From positions 124,001-188,000 of the forward strand of contig CACASQ010000001.1 in the NCBI GenBank assembly GCA_902535255.1: a stretch of DNA of 64,000 nt. Reading direction: 5' to 3'. Made by a program: the position numbers and the translations under genes. Shown piece after piece: positions 6,453 through 52,936 of this stretch. Below the pieces are notes generated by a model. That model saw nothing but the letters and a program-made list of their open reading frames with translations, had not been told where the DNA came from and searched no databases. How positions within the stretch are numbered: position 1 is the stretch's first letter; each line of letters begins with the position of its first letter. This DNA comes from an uncultured Pelagibacteraceae bacterium (lineage in GTDB: Bacteria > Pseudomonadota > Alphaproteobacteria > Pelagibacterales > Pelagibacteraceae).

Positions 6453-6615
6453 CCCAATCTGTCTATGTACCTGAGAGATTTAATCCTTCGGTGAGGCGTT
6501 AGCCTGCTTTCCAGAGTTATTACGGTAACGGTCCTTTTGCCTGAGAGTTTCCTGGGTTGTTGCTCCTTCGGCGCCAAAAAATTGGTCTCTCCCGTTACGA
6601 GTGGACTCTCCTCTA
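6453..6615 (-). promoter_or_regulatory. Tandem glycine riboswitch ahead of gcvT
   Basis: Read on the minus strand, this leader contains two glycine aptamers. Aptamer I runs about 6598 to 6525, closed by a 7-bp helix (6592-6598 with 6525-6531). It carries the conserved GGGAGAG, GCCGAAGGAGCAA and AACTCTCAGGCAAAAGGACCG blocks. Aptamer II runs about 6516 to 6453, with CTCTGGAAAGC, CACCGAAGGA, ATCTCTCAGGTACA and GACAGA blocks. A short GGAGAG sequence before aptamer I may form the leader helix known in this class. No terminator follows, so control is probably at translation initiation of gcvT. Glycine-responsive riboswitches ahead of gcvT are established in bacteria, including SAR11. Confidence 0.93.
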
Positions 6616-48725: not shown

Positions 48726-49118
48726 ATGAGTAGCTCATTTCATTTAGCAATCCCAGCTGGAGATTTAAAAAAAGCGGAAGCTTTTTATACCAATATTTTA
48801 GGATGTAAAACTGGAAATCGTGAAGATGGTAAATGGGTCGACATAGATTTTTGGGGCAATGAACTTACTTTGCATCAAACATCCATGAAACTTCCAAGAG
48901 AAAGACATGACGTAGATATGGGTCAAGTTCCAGTTCCACACTTTGGCGTGCATCTTAAAAGAGATATTTTTAATAAAATTAAAGCAAATATTGAAGCTAA
49001 TAAAATTAACTACATTGACAAACCTTACACTAGATTTGAAGGCACTGAATTTGAGCAAAATACATTTTTTATTGAAGATCCTAACGGAAATGTATTAGAG
49101 TTAAAAACGTTTGACTAA
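48726..49118 (+). CDS. VOC (glyoxalase-fold) family protein
   Basis: The 130-residue protein has the VOC start [23 protein letters not shown] and ends [16 protein letters not shown], with metal-ligand positions near residues 6, 77 and 121. It could be a glyoxalase or dioxygenase-like lyase. It overlaps the gshA start by eight bases. Glyoxalases use glutathione, which makes the link attractive but unproven. Confidence 0.85.
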
Positions 49119-50454
49119 TAAATCAACTTCATTCATTGAAAATAAAAGCCAGTTAATTAAATATTTTAACGACGGTATCAAAAAAGATACTAATCTTAGA
49201 ATTGGCGTTGAGCATGAAAAATTTCTTTTTAATAAAAAAGATCTTAAAAGAATTGATTATGAAAAGATAAAAAAAATATTTGAACTTCTTAAAAATAATG
49301 GTTGGGAGCTTCAATATGAGAAAGATAAAATAATTGGTTTAAAAAGGGAAAGTCAAAAGATTACTACTGAGCCAGGGTTTCAATATGAATTATCAGGTGC
49401 ACCTTTTAAAAACATACATTTAGTTTGTTCAGAAAATAGTTCTCATTTCAATGAACTTAAAGAAGTTTTTAGCTCTGCCTCTATAACAACTTCATCTATT
49501 GCATACGATCCTTTTAATAAATTAATTGAAATCCCTAAAAGTCCAAAGGAGCGTTACAAAATTATGACATCAGAAATGCCAAAAGGTGGCAAATTAAGTT
49601 TAGATATGATGTACAAAACTGCCGGTATTCAAATTAATTATGATTACACTTCTGAAGAAGATTTTGAAAAAAAATTTAAAATTGGAAACTATTTAGCTCC
49701 TTTAACTATTGCTCTTTTTGCAAACTCTCCTTTTTTTGAAAACAAGCCTTCCGGTTTTTTATCTTATAGAGGAAAAGTATGGCAAGAAACTAATAGAGGT
49801 GGAATAATGCCAATCGCTTTTGAAAATGTTAATTTTGAAAAATATATTGATCATGCAATAAGTTACCCAATTTTATTTCTTAAAAAAAATGGAAAATACC
49901 ATACGCCAAATGGCCAAACTTTTAGTGATTTTTTAAATGGTAACTTAAGTTTTTTAAAAGGAGAAAAACCAACTTTAAAAGATTTTGAAAATCACTTAGG
50001 TACTATTTTTACTGAGATAAGATTAAAGCAGGTTATAGAGTTTAGATCTTTAGATACATGTAATTTTGGTTGTATTTGTAACGGTCCCTCTTTCTTTACA
50101 GGATTAATTTATGGATCTTTAGATGAGACTTATGAAATAATCAAAAATTGGAAAAAAGAAGAGGTAATGGAATCGTATTTAAACGCACCCAAACAAGGAT
50201 TAAACACTGTGCTAAGAAATAAAAAATTAATTGATTGGGCAAAAATATTTTTAGATTTATCTAAAAAAGGCTTAGACAAAAGAAATGAACTTAATAAAAG
50301 TGGAAAAAATGAGACAATCTACTTAAAACATCTAGAGGAAATAATTAAGAATAAAAAAACTAGAGCAGAAATGTTGATTGAGCAATATAATAAAACAAAG
50401 AAATTAGATTTCTTAACAAATCATGAAGAAAATTTTAGCTATTCAGGGTTCTGA
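49111..50454 (+). CDS. gshA: Glutamate-cysteine ligase
   Basis: The 447-residue enzyme joins glutamate and cysteine, the first step of glutathione synthesis. It matches the alphaproteobacterial/plant type: LRIGVEHEKFLF near residue 30, QYELSGAPF, PKGGKLSLDMMYKTAGIQIN, and FANSPFFENKPSGFLSYR with WQETNRGGI. The start is TTG at 49111. No ATG occurs until residue 149, and the residues from 49111 onward match the family start. It overlaps the VOC gene. Confidence 0.93.
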   Translation: MTNKSTSFIENKSQLIKYFNDGIKKDTNLRIGVEHEKFLFNKKDLKRIDYEKIKKIFELLKNNGWELQYEKDKIIGLKRESQKITTEPGFQYELSGAPFKNIHLVCSENSSHFNELKEVFSSASITTSSIAYDPFNKLIEIPKSPKERYKIMTSEMPKGGKLSLDMMYKTAGIQINYDYTSEEDFEKKFKIGNYLAPLTIALFANSPFFENKPSGFLSYRGKVWQETNRGGIMPIAFENVNFEKYIDHAISYPILFLKKNGKYHTPNGQTFSDFLNGNLSFLKGEKPTLKDFENHLGTIFTEIRLKQVIEFRSLDTCNFGCICNGPSFFTGLIYGSLDETYEIIKNWKKEEVMESYLNAPKQGLNTVLRNKKLIDWAKIFLDLSKKGLDKRNELNKSGKNETIYLKHLEEIIKNKKTRAEMLIEQYNKTKKLDFLTNHEENFSYSGF

Positions 50455-51340
50455 TCTTAAAAAAATAAATATCAAAACTGATACGACTATTCTTTTAGCG
50501 TCCGAAGCTCAAAAAAAAGGATATAGAATATATTACTTTGAACCTGAAAATCTAAGTTTTTTAAATGGAAAGGTTATTGCCTTTTGTAAGTATATAAAAA
50601 TTAATAAAAATAAAACAAAATTCTACTCTCTAATAAGAAATATCAATTTTAATTTGGAAAAATCTAAAGTTATATTAATCAGAAATGATCCTCCTTTTGA
50701 TAATCGTTATTTATATACAACATTCTTACTGAACCATATCTCCAGGAAAGTTAAGATTATAAATCATCCTTTTGCTGTAAGAAACATATCTGAAAAGTTA
50801 TTTTCAATTAATTTAATGAGGTATATGCCTCCGACTTTAATTAGCGAAAACCTTTCAGAAATTAGAAGTTTTTTTAAAAAGCATAAAGCTGTCGTGGCTA
50901 AACCAATTAATGGTTTTAGTGGTAATAACGTAATTTTATTTAAAACTTTTAATGCTAATAAACTTAAAAAATTATTGAAAACTCATAATCATTTATTTTT
51001 TCAAAAGTTTTTACCTGGAGTTTCCAAAGGTGACAAAAGGGTTTTTATCATTAAAGGAAAGATCGAAGGTGCTATTTCTAGGGTGCCTAAAAAAGGCAGT
51101 ATTTTATCTAATATGAGTAAAGGGGCTAAAGCAAAATTAACAAAGCTCACAAGCAAAGAAGTTAGTGCAAGCAAAGCAATTGGGAAATTGTTAGTGAAAA
51201 ATAATATATATTTTGCAGGAATAGATTTCGTTGAAGAGAAATTAATTGGGGATATTAATGTTACTAGCCCTACTGGGTTGGCTGCATACAAAGATTTATC
51301 TGGAATAAACCTTGCAAAATTGTTCTGGAATAATATTTAA
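50423..51340 (+). CDS. gshB: Glutathione synthase
   Basis: The 305-residue ATP-grasp enzyme adds glycine to gamma-glutamylcysteine. Family blocks include IRNDPPFDNRYLYTTFLL, NHPFAVRNISEKLF, VAKPINGFSGNNVILFK, FLPGVSKGDKRVFIIKGK and GDINVTSPTGL. It overlaps gshA by 32 bases, so the pair is co-translated. The metY promoter starts one base after its stop. Confidence 0.94.
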   Translation: MKKILAIQGSDLKKINIKTDTTILLASEAQKKGYRIYYFEPENLSFLNGKVIAFCKYIKINKNKTKFYSLIRNINFNLEKSKVILIRNDPPFDNRYLYTTFLLNHISRKVKIINHPFAVRNISEKLFSINLMRYMPPTLISENLSEIRSFFKKHKAVVAKPINGFSGNNVILFKTFNANKLKKLLKTHNHLFFQKFLPGVSKGDKRVFIIKGKIEGAISRVPKKGSILSNMSKGAKAKLTKLTSKEVSASKAIGKLLVKNNIYFAGIDFVEEKLIGDINVTSPTGLAAYKDLSGINLAKLFWNNI

Positions 51341-51347
51341 TTGACAG

Positions 51348-51377
51348 TTGACAAAATCGTGAATTTCTTGCTATAAA
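51348..51377 (+). promoter_or_regulatory. Promoter of metY
   Basis: A TTGACA box (51348-51353) and an extended -10, TG-C-TATAAA (51369-51377), are separated by 18 bases. A second TTGACA lies 7 bases upstream (51341-51346) but is too far from the -10. This is one of the clearest sigma-70-like promoters in the window. Transcription would start near 51384, right at the SAM-II aptamer. Confidence 0.8.
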
Positions 51378-51383
51378 TTCAAT

Positions 51384-51434
51384 AGCGCTGAGTTAAGGCA
51401 ACTTGCGGGCGCTTTATAAATCCTGCTAAAGCGC
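51384..51434 (+). promoter_or_regulatory. SAM-II riboswitch aptamer ahead of metY
   Basis: The sequence fits the SAM-II pseudoknot: the P1 arms AGCGC (51384-51388) and GCGCT (51409-51413), a GAGTTAAGGCAACTTGC loop resembling the SAM-II core, then TTATAAATCCTGCTAAAGCG for the 3' pseudoknot part. SAM-II aptamers sense S-adenosylmethionine. Their use before methionine genes, with a terminator and a second SAM-V aptamer downstream, has been described in SAR11. Its 3' arm overlaps an antiterminator that competes with the next hairpin. Confidence 0.88.
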
Positions 51435-51447
51435 ATAAGTCATTTAG

Positions 51448-51476
51448 ACCACCGCTTTAGCCGGTGGTTTTTTTTT
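51448..51476 (+). terminator. SAM-controlled intrinsic terminator
   Basis: Stem CCACCG (51449-51454) with CGGTGG (51462-51467), plus a flanking A-T pair and nine consecutive T residues (51468-51476), forms a terminator. The loop and inner stem contain GCTTTAGC (51454-51461), which can pair perfectly over eight bases with GCTAAAGC (51425-51432) in the SAM-II 3' arm. When SAM occupies the aptamer, the terminator should win. Confidence 0.88.
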
Positions 51477-51495
51477 AGAACAATCTAAAATTAAA

Positions 51496-51550
51496 CTGGG
51501 TATTTGAACCATATTGTACACCTGGCATATGCCGAAGTACTAAAAAGGAG
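51496..51550 (+). promoter_or_regulatory. SAM-V riboswitch aptamer (probable)
   Basis: This region shares the SAM-V order of core blocks: GGGTATTTGAACC, ATTGTACACC, GAAGTACT and AAAAAGGAG, which align by eye with the known SAM-V core (AUUGCACUCC ... GAUAAGU ... GAAAAGGG). The AAAAGGAG at its 3' edge is also a Shine-Dalgarno sequence, so SAM binding should hide a translation start. It works at translation, while the SAM-II part works at transcription. Confidence 0.72.
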
Positions 51551-51553
51551 AAG

Positions 51554-51607
51554 ATGAACAGAATTAAACTTCGTTCATTCTTCTCCAGAAAGACGGAGAA
51601 AAAATGA
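51554..51607 (+). CDS. Leader ORF 1 in the metY 5' region (17 residues)
   Basis: ATG at 51554 follows the AAGGAG at the edge of the SAM-V aptamer by three bases, which is tight but possible. It encodes MNRIKLRSFFSRKTEKK and ends with TGA at 51605-51607, which overlaps the ATG of leader ORF 2 (ATGA). The start lies within one arm of a 13-bp hairpin. The peptide is basic and has no known relatives. Its likely role is to pass ribosomes on rather than to make a functional peptide. Confidence 0.45.
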   Translation: MNRIKLRSFFSRKTEKK

Positions 51608-51651
51608 ACGAAACGATAAGAGAAACAGTAAGGGGGAAAATCAATGGCTGA
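51604..51651 (+). CDS. Leader ORF 2 in the metY 5' region (15 residues)
   Basis: ATG at 51604 has a well-placed GGAG (51595-51598, 5-base spacer) and encodes MNETIRETVRGKING, ending TGA at 51649-51651, past the metY start. It overlaps leader ORF 1 at its start (ATGA) and metY at its end, in different frames. It may couple translation of leader ORF 1 to metY. The frame is short, so chance cannot be ruled out without comparative data. Confidence 0.45.
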   Translation: MNETIRETVRGKING

Positions 51652-52936
51652 TTTTAAACATCCGGAAACTATTGGCTTGCATGGTAGCGATTACAGAAGT
51701 GACTCAGCTACAACAGCAGTAGCAGTTCCAATTTACCAAACAACTTCTTACCAATTTAAAAATGCGGAAACCGCTGCAAATTTATTTGGTTTAAAAGAGT
51801 TCGGTAATATTTACACAAGAATAATGAACCCAACATGTGATGTGCTTGAGAAAAGAGTAGCAGCACTAGAAGGTGGTGTAGCAGCTCTTGCAGTTGGATC
51901 AGGTCAAGCAGCATCAGCAATGTGCATTCAAAACTTGGCACAGGCTGGAGATAATATAGTTGCTTCAACTGACTTGTACGGAGGTACAGTGAACTTATTC
52001 AAAAATACTTTAAGACAACAAGGTATTGAAGTTAGATTTGCAGATCCTGCAGATCCAAAAAACTTTGAAAAGTTAACTGATGATAAGACAAGAGCTTACT
52101 ACGGTGAGTCTTGTCCAAATCCTTATCTTCGTGTGTTCCCAATTAAGGAAGTTTCAGATATCGGTAGAAAAAAAGGTATTCCTTTAATTATCGATAACAC
52201 AGCTTCACCAGTAATTTGTAAACCTTTAGCTCATGGTGCTGCAATCGTGATGCACTCTTTGACTAAATATATTGGTGGTCACGGGACTTCAATTGGTGGA
52301 ATTATTGTTGATGGTGGAAACTTTGACTGGATTAAAGACAGAAAAAGACAACCATTATTAAATGAGCCTGACCAAAGTTATGGTGGTGCTATATGGGCAG
52401 ATGCAGTTCCTCAATTAACAGGAGCTAACATTCCTTTTGTAATTAGAGCGAGAGTGGTCTTATTGAGAGACTTAGGTGCTCCTTTAAGTCCGTTTAATGC
52501 TTTCCAAATTATTCAAGGTTTGGAAACAGTTGCTCTTAGAATGAAACAACATTGCAGTAATGCAGAAAAAGTTGTCTCTTTCTTAGAAACACAAAAGAAA
52601 GTTAAAAATGTAATCTACCCTACTAATCACCAAGGCGAGATTAAAGAAAGAGCTAAAAAATATATGCAAGGTGGATATGGTTCTTTAGTTGGAATGGATT
52701 TGGGCACAAAAGAAGCTGGTGCTAAATTCATCGATAACTTAAAGATGTTATATCACGTTGCTAATATTGGTGATGCTAGAAGTTTAGCAATTCACCCAGC
52801 TACAACAACGCACAGTCAATTAGATGATGCTGCGTTAGCGGCAGCAGGAGTAACACCGGGCTATGTAAGACTGTCAATTGGTATCGAACATCCAGATGAT
52901 ATCATTGCGGATATTAAGCAAGCTTTAGCTGCTTAA
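51644..52936 (+). CDS. metY: O-acetylhomoserine sulfhydrylase (MetY-type)
   Basis: The 430-residue PLP enzyme makes homocysteine or methionine from O-acetylhomoserine and a sulfur compound. The PLP lysine is K208 in VMHSLTKYIGGHG, with YTRIMNPTCDVLEKRVAALEGG and IDNTASPVICKPLAHGA as further family blocks. It has an AGGGGG ribosome binding site seven bases before ATG. The gene is preceded by a two-riboswitch leader that should turn it off when SAM is high. Confidence 0.95.
   Translation: MADFKHPETIGLHGSDYRSDSATTAVAVPIYQTTSYQFKNAETAANLFGLKEFGNIYTRIMNPTCDVLEKRVAALEGGVAALAVGSGQAASAMCIQNLAQAGDNIVASTDLYGGTVNLFKNTLRQQGIEVRFADPADPKNFEKLTDDKTRAYYGESCPNPYLRVFPIKEVSDIGRKKGIPLIIDNTASPVICKPLAHGAAIVMHSLTKYIGGHGTSIGGIIVDGGNFDWIKDRKRQPLLNEPDQSYGGAIWADAVPQLTGANIPFVIRARVVLLRDLGAPLSPFNAFQIIQGLETVALRMKQHCSNAEKVVSFLETQKKVKNVIYPTNHQGEIKERAKKYMQGGYGSLVGMDLGTKEAGAKFIDNLKMLYHVANIGDARSLAIHPATTTHSQLDDAALAAAGVTPGYVRLSIGIEHPDDIIADIKQALAA

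Follow-up and report, generated by a model that had tools for sequence, protein, structure and literature searches.

Riboswitches of the thiM TPP type use anti- and anti-anti-Shine-Dalgarno arms, and the mutually exclusive pairing of three segments governs a distal ribosome site. The ocean's most abundant cells include SAR11 bacteria, in which riboswitches control the methionine genes (PMC5069961). In the tandem described from this group, a SAM-II aptamer and a terminator are followed by SAM-V upstream of bhmT, with SAM-II acting on transcription and SAM-V on translation (PMC9481103, PMC11508383). The bhmT tandem of HTCC1062 is reported to bind SAM with a KD of 1.2 µM (PMC5069961). The SAM-II domain is unresponsive to SAM in full-length bhmT tandem RNA. 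This was traced to the linker, and the response returned when oligonucleotides were directed against that stretch, a result that the authors did not understand (PMC11508383). For SAM-V, SAM binding is proposed to form P2a, a helix of two base pairs that includes part of the Shine-Dalgarno sequence (PDB 6FZ0, PMC6061858). In Sinorhizobium meliloti, a SAM-II riboswitch with a terminator precedes metZ, and the Shine-Dalgarno of the metA riboswitch is needed for a start codon 74 nt downstream (PMC9373788).

The window, by which we mean the whole 64,000-nt stretch of DNA analysed here, contains a leader at 51384-51651 that belongs to this already known kind of tandem (Table 1). It resembles the published SAR11 tandem in the order of its elements, in the apparent division between transcription and translation and in its association with methionine genes. 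The published tandem precedes bhmT, whereas that of the window precedes metY and has G in place of U10 in its first aptamer; moreover, its SAM-V Shine-Dalgarno is set apart from the gene by a relay of three segments (A, B and C), unlike in the published account. A sequence-only reading of this DNA had recognised the SAM-II-type half and the metY gene. The gene assignment is borne out by the family score, and the closest named MetY relatives are records from uncultured Pelagibacteraceae and Ca. Pelagibacter ubique, which marks the genome as SAR11; the account of the leader was incomplete, as the SAM-II-type element is only its first half and the SAM-V aptamer, a full-length match above the gathering score, had been missed. 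We consider it fairly probable that SAM switches the leader at two levels, transcription through the SAM-II-type aptamer and terminator (level 1) and translation through SAM-V and the relay (level 2). No promoter turned up in a scan of 51300-51700. The leader is immediately preceded, at 49111-51340, by genes for a glutamate-cysteine ligase-like protein (TIGR01436, below cut-off) and a glutathione synthase (NF003573, above cut-off).

Table 1. Features of the metY leader, in window positions
Feature	Position	Strand	Details
SAM-II-type aptamer	51384-51432	+	RF00521 match 51375-51449, 21.4 bits; residue comparison
Aptamer P1	51384-51388 with 51409-51413		AGCGC with GCGCT
Aptamer L1			TGAGTTAA; G at 51392 replaces U10
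Aptamer 3' arm	51425-51432		GCTAAAGC
Antiterminator	51425-51461	+	GCTAAAGC (51425-51432) with GCTTTAGC (51454-51461); fold extends to 16 pairs
Intrinsic terminator	51446-51476	+	Stem 51446-51470 plus U-run; modelled probability of the stem with aptamer blocked, mean 0.99 (93 distinct leaders)
SAM-V riboswitch aptamer	51489-51553	+	RF01826, 72.2 bits (gathering score 41), model 1-66 of 66
Relay segment A	51547-51559	+	SAM-V Shine-Dalgarno plus AUG, GGAGAAGATGAAC
Relay segment B	51573-51586	+	Anti-Shine-Dalgarno, GTTCATTCTTCTCC, complementary to both A and C
Relay segment C	51595-51610	+	Second Shine-Dalgarno plus AUG (AUG at 51604)
uORF1 (17 codons)	51554-51607	+	Starts in A, ends at C AUG; overlap kept in 27/41 metY-relay leaders
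uORF2 (15 codons)	51604-51651	+	Starts at C AUG, overlaps metY start by 8 nt
metY (O-acetylhomoserine sulfhydrylase), regulated gene	51644-52936	+	TIGR01326, 561.6 bits (cut-off 495.1)

SAM-V (RF01826) was found in 81 of 101 genomes of the genus, at 83 places, and in 190 of 397 genomes of the order. We read 131 leaders, namely all 83 genus places and 48 further ones among the order matches listed. The 3' Shine-Dalgarno of SAM-V is the controlled gene's own in 65 of these leaders (58 before metY, 6 before mmuM and 1 before bhmT). The relay occurs in another 65, upstream of metY (41, the window included), bhmT (22) or a methionine-synthase-like (metE-like) gene (2), and one leader had no gene that we could find. 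Labels for metY, bhmT and mmuM were assigned by script from N-terminal motifs, with only the metY of the window set against the family library, and the methionine-synthase label was taken from weak NCBIfam matches that score far below the cut-offs. The labels in genome G111 agree with the published map (PMC2704228).

The described SAM-V occludes a Shine-Dalgarno that belongs to the gene (PMC6061858), whereas in the window the GGAG of SAM-V starts at 51547, metY follows 97 nt later at 51644, and the Shine-Dalgarno is complementary to an anti-Shine-Dalgarno instead of serving the gene directly. The aptamer is still SAM-V; what differs is the expression platform. Segment B can pair with A or with C, and the two helices are mutually exclusive. 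The layout recurs with other sequences upstream of bhmT and the methionine-synthase-like gene, and a terminator accompanies it in all 65 relay leaders. The relay differs from the thiM type in that its anti-anti-Shine-Dalgarno arm is the aptamer's own former ribosome site. The S. meliloti metA leader has a single SAM-II and an in-frame second AUG, and no A/B/C relay is described in the available text (PMC9373788).

Pairing between A and B is strong throughout, with a mean of -20.6 kcal/mol and a weakest value of -15.7 kcal/mol in the 65 relays; in the 65 direct leaders, A reaches a mean of only -4.2 and at best -8.3 kcal/mol with the downstream stretch. Relay pairs were taken from duplex folding and segment exchange, as MAFFT put the bhmT relays of different genera out of register and that alignment was left out. 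Shuffling the middle segment of the 54 distinct relays (10,800 shuffles) reached the observed A:B energy 21 times, B:C 187 times (169 in bhmT relays) and both once. Exchange of B among 12 diverse leaders weakened A:B from -20.6 to -14.4 kcal/mol, and the matched sum was reached by none of 20,000 permutations for A:B and by 93 of 20,000 for B:C, with the leader's own B being the best partner of A in only 6/12 and of C in 1/12. A:B shows many pair types in the bhmT relays. Within the little diverged metY clade, two A:B pairs changed on both sides (0/500 shuffles), and B:C showed no covariation beyond that of shuffles (343/500).

Under the two-level reading, segment A, although the Shine-Dalgarno of SAM-V itself, would be unused by metY and would act as an anti-anti-Shine-Dalgarno. 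Without SAM, A:B would form and C, with the second Shine-Dalgarno and its AUG, would stay open. With SAM, the first two G of A would be held in P2a, B:C would form and C would be shut. Ribosomes starting at C would enter uORF2, and metY would probably be reached from there by translational coupling.

We modelled the SAM-bound state by blocking the two G of A held in P2a, using folds that treat neither pseudoknots nor kinetics. The mean unpaired probability of the C Shine-Dalgarno fell from 0.48 to 0.01 in the 41 metY relays, from 0.31 to 0.08 in the 22 bhmT relays and from 0.47 to 0.00 in the 2 others, and C opening dropped by more than 0.2 in 34/41, 8/22 and 1/2, respectively. In the fold model, switching is thus clear for metY relays but weak for most bhmT relays; in the bhmT relays the AUG did not become less open on the block (0.60 to 0.68). 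C was more shut in 40/41 metY relays when two bases of A were blocked, and its opening fell in 41/41 metY, 21/22 bhmT and 2/2 other relays when four were blocked. For full metY leaders, C opening went from 0.32 to 0.01 at 37 C; with SAM-V included and the aptamer and GG blocked, C was less open in 41/41 metY, 22/22 bhmT and 2/2 other leaders at 37 C, and in 40/41, 22/22 and 2/2 at 20 C. The C Shine-Dalgarno was less than 0.05 open in both states in four of the 41 metY relays (L003, L026, L036, L085) and one of the 22 bhmT relays (L122). The window's own minimum free energy (MFE) fold is B:C even with A free.

metY also has its own Shine-Dalgarno-like AAGGGGG before 51644. This sequence stays unpaired in the fold, and the control of metY by C may therefore be loose. 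Level 1 could work as described while the relay is idle, with metY starting at AAGGGGG and with A, B and C left over from a bhmT lost between the relay and metY. All six bhmT-metY junctions examined carry, between the two genes, an ORF with codons similar by eye to those of uORF2 and with its own ATG and Shine-Dalgarno, and the simplest history would be that bhmT was lost and the C of the relay was then joined to uORF2. We nevertheless consider an idle relay rather unlikely. A leftover would be expected to decay, yet the frame of uORF2 into metY is kept in 41/41 metY-relay leaders, with its end relative to metY identical in every one; A:B and B:C are nearly equal in strength (means of -20.0 and -19.8 kcal/mol over 31 distinct metY relays); and C shuts further when A is blocked, by four bases in 41/41 and by two in 40/41. 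Codon differences among the 31 distinct 48-nt forms of uORF2 are 27 synonymous and 44 nonsynonymous, suggesting that the frame is kept rather than the peptide, and a conserved uORF2 peptide appears doubtful.

Alternatively, the leader may be no more than the published tandem, in which SAM-II runs the terminator and SAM-V hides its own Shine-Dalgarno; a ribosome starting there would translate uORF1 through B and C and re-initiate at C by stop-start overlap. Direct occlusion is the published SAM-V mechanism (PMC6061858), the 27 metY relays in which uORF1 overlaps the C AUG as ATGA include the window, and in 14/22 bhmT relays the end of uORF1 lies 4 or 8 nt beyond the start codon's first base. 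We find this unlikely, given that uORF1 is frameshifted or shortened in 14/41 metY relays, that no ATG lies ahead of the bhmT start in 5/22 bhmT relays and that both relay states have A tied up, either in a helix or as part of the aptamer. The loss of the overlap in those 14 leaders, alongside A:B pairing of -15.7 kcal/mol or better in 65/65 relays, indicates that the pairing is conserved and not a peptide; uORF1 as a conserved leader peptide was rejected, and its frame, not being conserved, is probably not a functional feature.

The relay that we favour as level 2 recurs in G111, in the bhmT leader; we take this genome to be HTCC1062 as its riboswitch coordinates match those of PMC2704228. 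The C AUG of this leader, at 1127292, adjoins the bhmT intergenic region given there (1127293-1127553). Judging from its length and the primer positions, the 177-nt RNA studied previously (PMC11508383) would end at GGAGAAAAGAGGCCTATG and hence lack B and C; the AUG of GGAGAAAAGAGGCCTATG lies 58 nt before bhmT and out of frame with it. If the relay operates as proposed, RNAs ending at the first AUG, as this one appears to, omit the actual switch of the gene. No A/B/C relay is mentioned in the available parts of PMC2704228, PMC5069961, PMC6061858, PMC9481103 and PMC11508383 or in our literature searches, a comparison outside which Poiata et al. 2009 falls, or in the available parts of PMC12452182, PMC13273304 and PMC4239095, which were covered by riboswitch names only. 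The relay downstream of SAM-V thus looks new, though we do not claim priority. Together with the pocket variant of the first aptamer, it is the part of the leader worth an experiment.

The sequence of the first aptamer has the parts of an H-type pseudoknot, with P1, UUGC and, in the 3' arm of P2, GCUAAA. Its RF00521 score lies below the gathering score of 36. This threshold is a poor guide in SAR11, because the SAM-binding bhmT tandem itself gives no SAM_alpha match (none in G111 at E up to 1 in Rfam); an RF00521 search of the window's genome likewise had no match, and as 14 control genomes had none either it offers no contrast. The L1 and P2b residues listed as completely conserved in SAM-II are U10, U11, U12, U20, U21, G22, C23, G42, C43, U44, A45, A46 and A47 (PMC3764141), and the window aptamer has all of them but U10. 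The pocket residues around the sulfonium are kept. Of the 98 leaders that carry the tandem, 63 have G at the U10 position, 34 have T and one has C. In SAM-V, U8 contacts the U that pairs with the SAM adenine (PMC6061858); by our own alignment U8 appears to be the equivalent of U10, and the SAM-V of the window keeps U at that place. Of the earlier identification as a SAM-II aptamer, the pseudoknot parts and the 3' arm stand, but the score and the residue at position 10 do not conform, so we call the element SAM-II-type, or a SAM-II variant, rather than a proven SAM-II.

The presence of G at position 10, where U is described as fully conserved, looks new and, with the pocket changed in this way, SAM binding by the variant is not a given; its affinity for SAM is possibly weaker, or its ligand a different one. 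The first aptamer might then no longer be a true SAM-II, the change on the adenine side shifting its affinity or selecting another adenosyl ligand, and the leader would be a two-input gate, with transcription controlled by the first ligand and translation by SAM, the second input being relayed to a distant start codon through the reused Shine-Dalgarno. We regard this scheme as speculative and improbable. The change is found in most tandems, which makes ligand specificity directly testable.

At level 1 of the two-level switch, we infer that SAM would let the 3' arm complete the pseudoknot, leaving the terminator free so that transcription stops, and that without SAM the arm would pair with the terminator and RNA polymerase would pass, the choice being made in co-transcriptional order. 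This direction would agree with the published reading of SAM-II/SAM-V tandems (PMC9481103). The two complementary 8-mers that the sequence-only reading had pointed out are present and match exactly, and the hairpin it took for a terminator is a terminator-like stem followed by a U-run. When the 44 nt downstream were dinucleotide-shuffled 20,000 times, an exact complement of GCTAAAGC arose in 42 cases and a complement to some 8-mer within the aptamer in 872; across the same split, some 8-nt complement occurred in 48 of 659 equal-sized tiles of the window. Taken by itself, the window gives no more than a suggestive match, and relatives were needed since a chance match in a single sequence is not negligible. 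The MFE fold of 51375-51480 is the antiterminator, whose 16 pairs with two bulges make it longer than the 8 pairs first named; the z-score of this fold is only -1.40, and 18 of 200 shuffles fold equally well.

Conservation across SAR11 leaders makes the match convincing. The terminator is present in 98 of the 131 SAM-V leaders. These come from at least three genera, and the gene that follows is metY, bhmT or a metE-like one. All 98 have GCTAAAGC as the arm, and the partner of the arm in the terminator is GCTTTAGC in 62 (all Watson-Crick), GCTTTAGT in 28 (one G-U) and a form with one mismatch in the remaining 8, giving 8/8 pairs in 90/98 leaders, with G-U allowed, and 7/8 in the others. The covariation that had been predicted for this pairing was not found and is not demonstrable with a fixed arm, which is presumably held by ligand binding; more informative is that the terminator loop, otherwise free to drift, appears to be kept as the complement of the arm.

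In folding models of the 93 distinct leaders, which include neither pseudoknot nor kinetics, the antiterminator had a median probability of 0.98 and the terminator of 0.01 with the aptamer free, and the terminator reached at least 0.97 in every leader with the aptamer blocked. The antiterminator was favoured over the terminator in 83/93 with the aptamer free, and blocking raised the terminator probability in 93/93. The 10 leaders in which the antiterminator was not the favoured form include L089, from another family, which is terminator-prone (0.95). Conservation and folding both back the proposed incompatibility between arm pairing and terminator, and sequence and fold models together predict the exclusive pairing of aptamer and terminator that characterizes terminator/antiterminator riboswitches. 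Chance complementarity was rejected, as its odds in shuffles and tiles are outweighed by conservation in the 98 terminator leaders. It is very improbable that the match is fortuitous, the SAM-II-like element a relic and the terminator either constitutive or there for the glutathione synthase gene upstream: the G in the pocket, the sub-threshold Rfam score and the 48 tiles with such a complement would fit, but the loop is kept as the arm's complement in 90 leaders of at least three genera upstream of different methionine genes, and a SAR11 tandem is reported to bind SAM without an Rfam SAM_alpha match.

An antiterminator that takes the 3' arm of P2 would offer a concrete cause for the silencing of SAM-II by the linker, as it would win in refolded full-length RNA; in the model of that bhmT leader (L091), the antiterminator has a probability of 0.99. 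The unresponsiveness of SAM-II in full-length bhmT RNA (PMC11508383) implies that equilibrium assays miss the switch.

The other 33 leaders lack the terminator; in these, SAM-V is directly preceded by a SAM-II-like core (xCCGATTTG..CC..TATTGC.GGx..GCTAAA..GG), found by pattern in 32 and by eye in L096. They precede metY (L092, L094, L096-L098, L100-L105, L107-L109, L113, L114, L119-L121, L123-L130) or mmuM (L045, L063, L093, L111, L112, L118). Among the 28 distinct cores the pseudoknot pairs covary, three having changed on both sides (0/500 shuffles), and the core is possibly a hidden second SAM aptamer. Rfam gave no SAM_alpha match in six of these loci at E up to 0.5, and in its available part the table of PMC2704228 lists only SAM-V for metY and mmuM. 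An extra helix between xCCGATT and the stretch before SAM-V was set aside: it has 7/7 pairs in 17/32 leaders, but shuffled tails match in 1202/6400.

The loop between A and B carries a C-rich CC(C)TC motif in 19/22 bhmT relays (for example L011, L106 and L110) and in only 5/41 metY relays; the 19 come from two genera, and their sequences are otherwise different. One leader, L099, has SAM-V with A and B, lacks C and has no gene downstream in the stretch read, and looks like a leader whose gene was lost. Elsewhere in the window, we identified a glycine riboswitch at 6519-6604 on the minus strand (RF00504, 69.1 bits).
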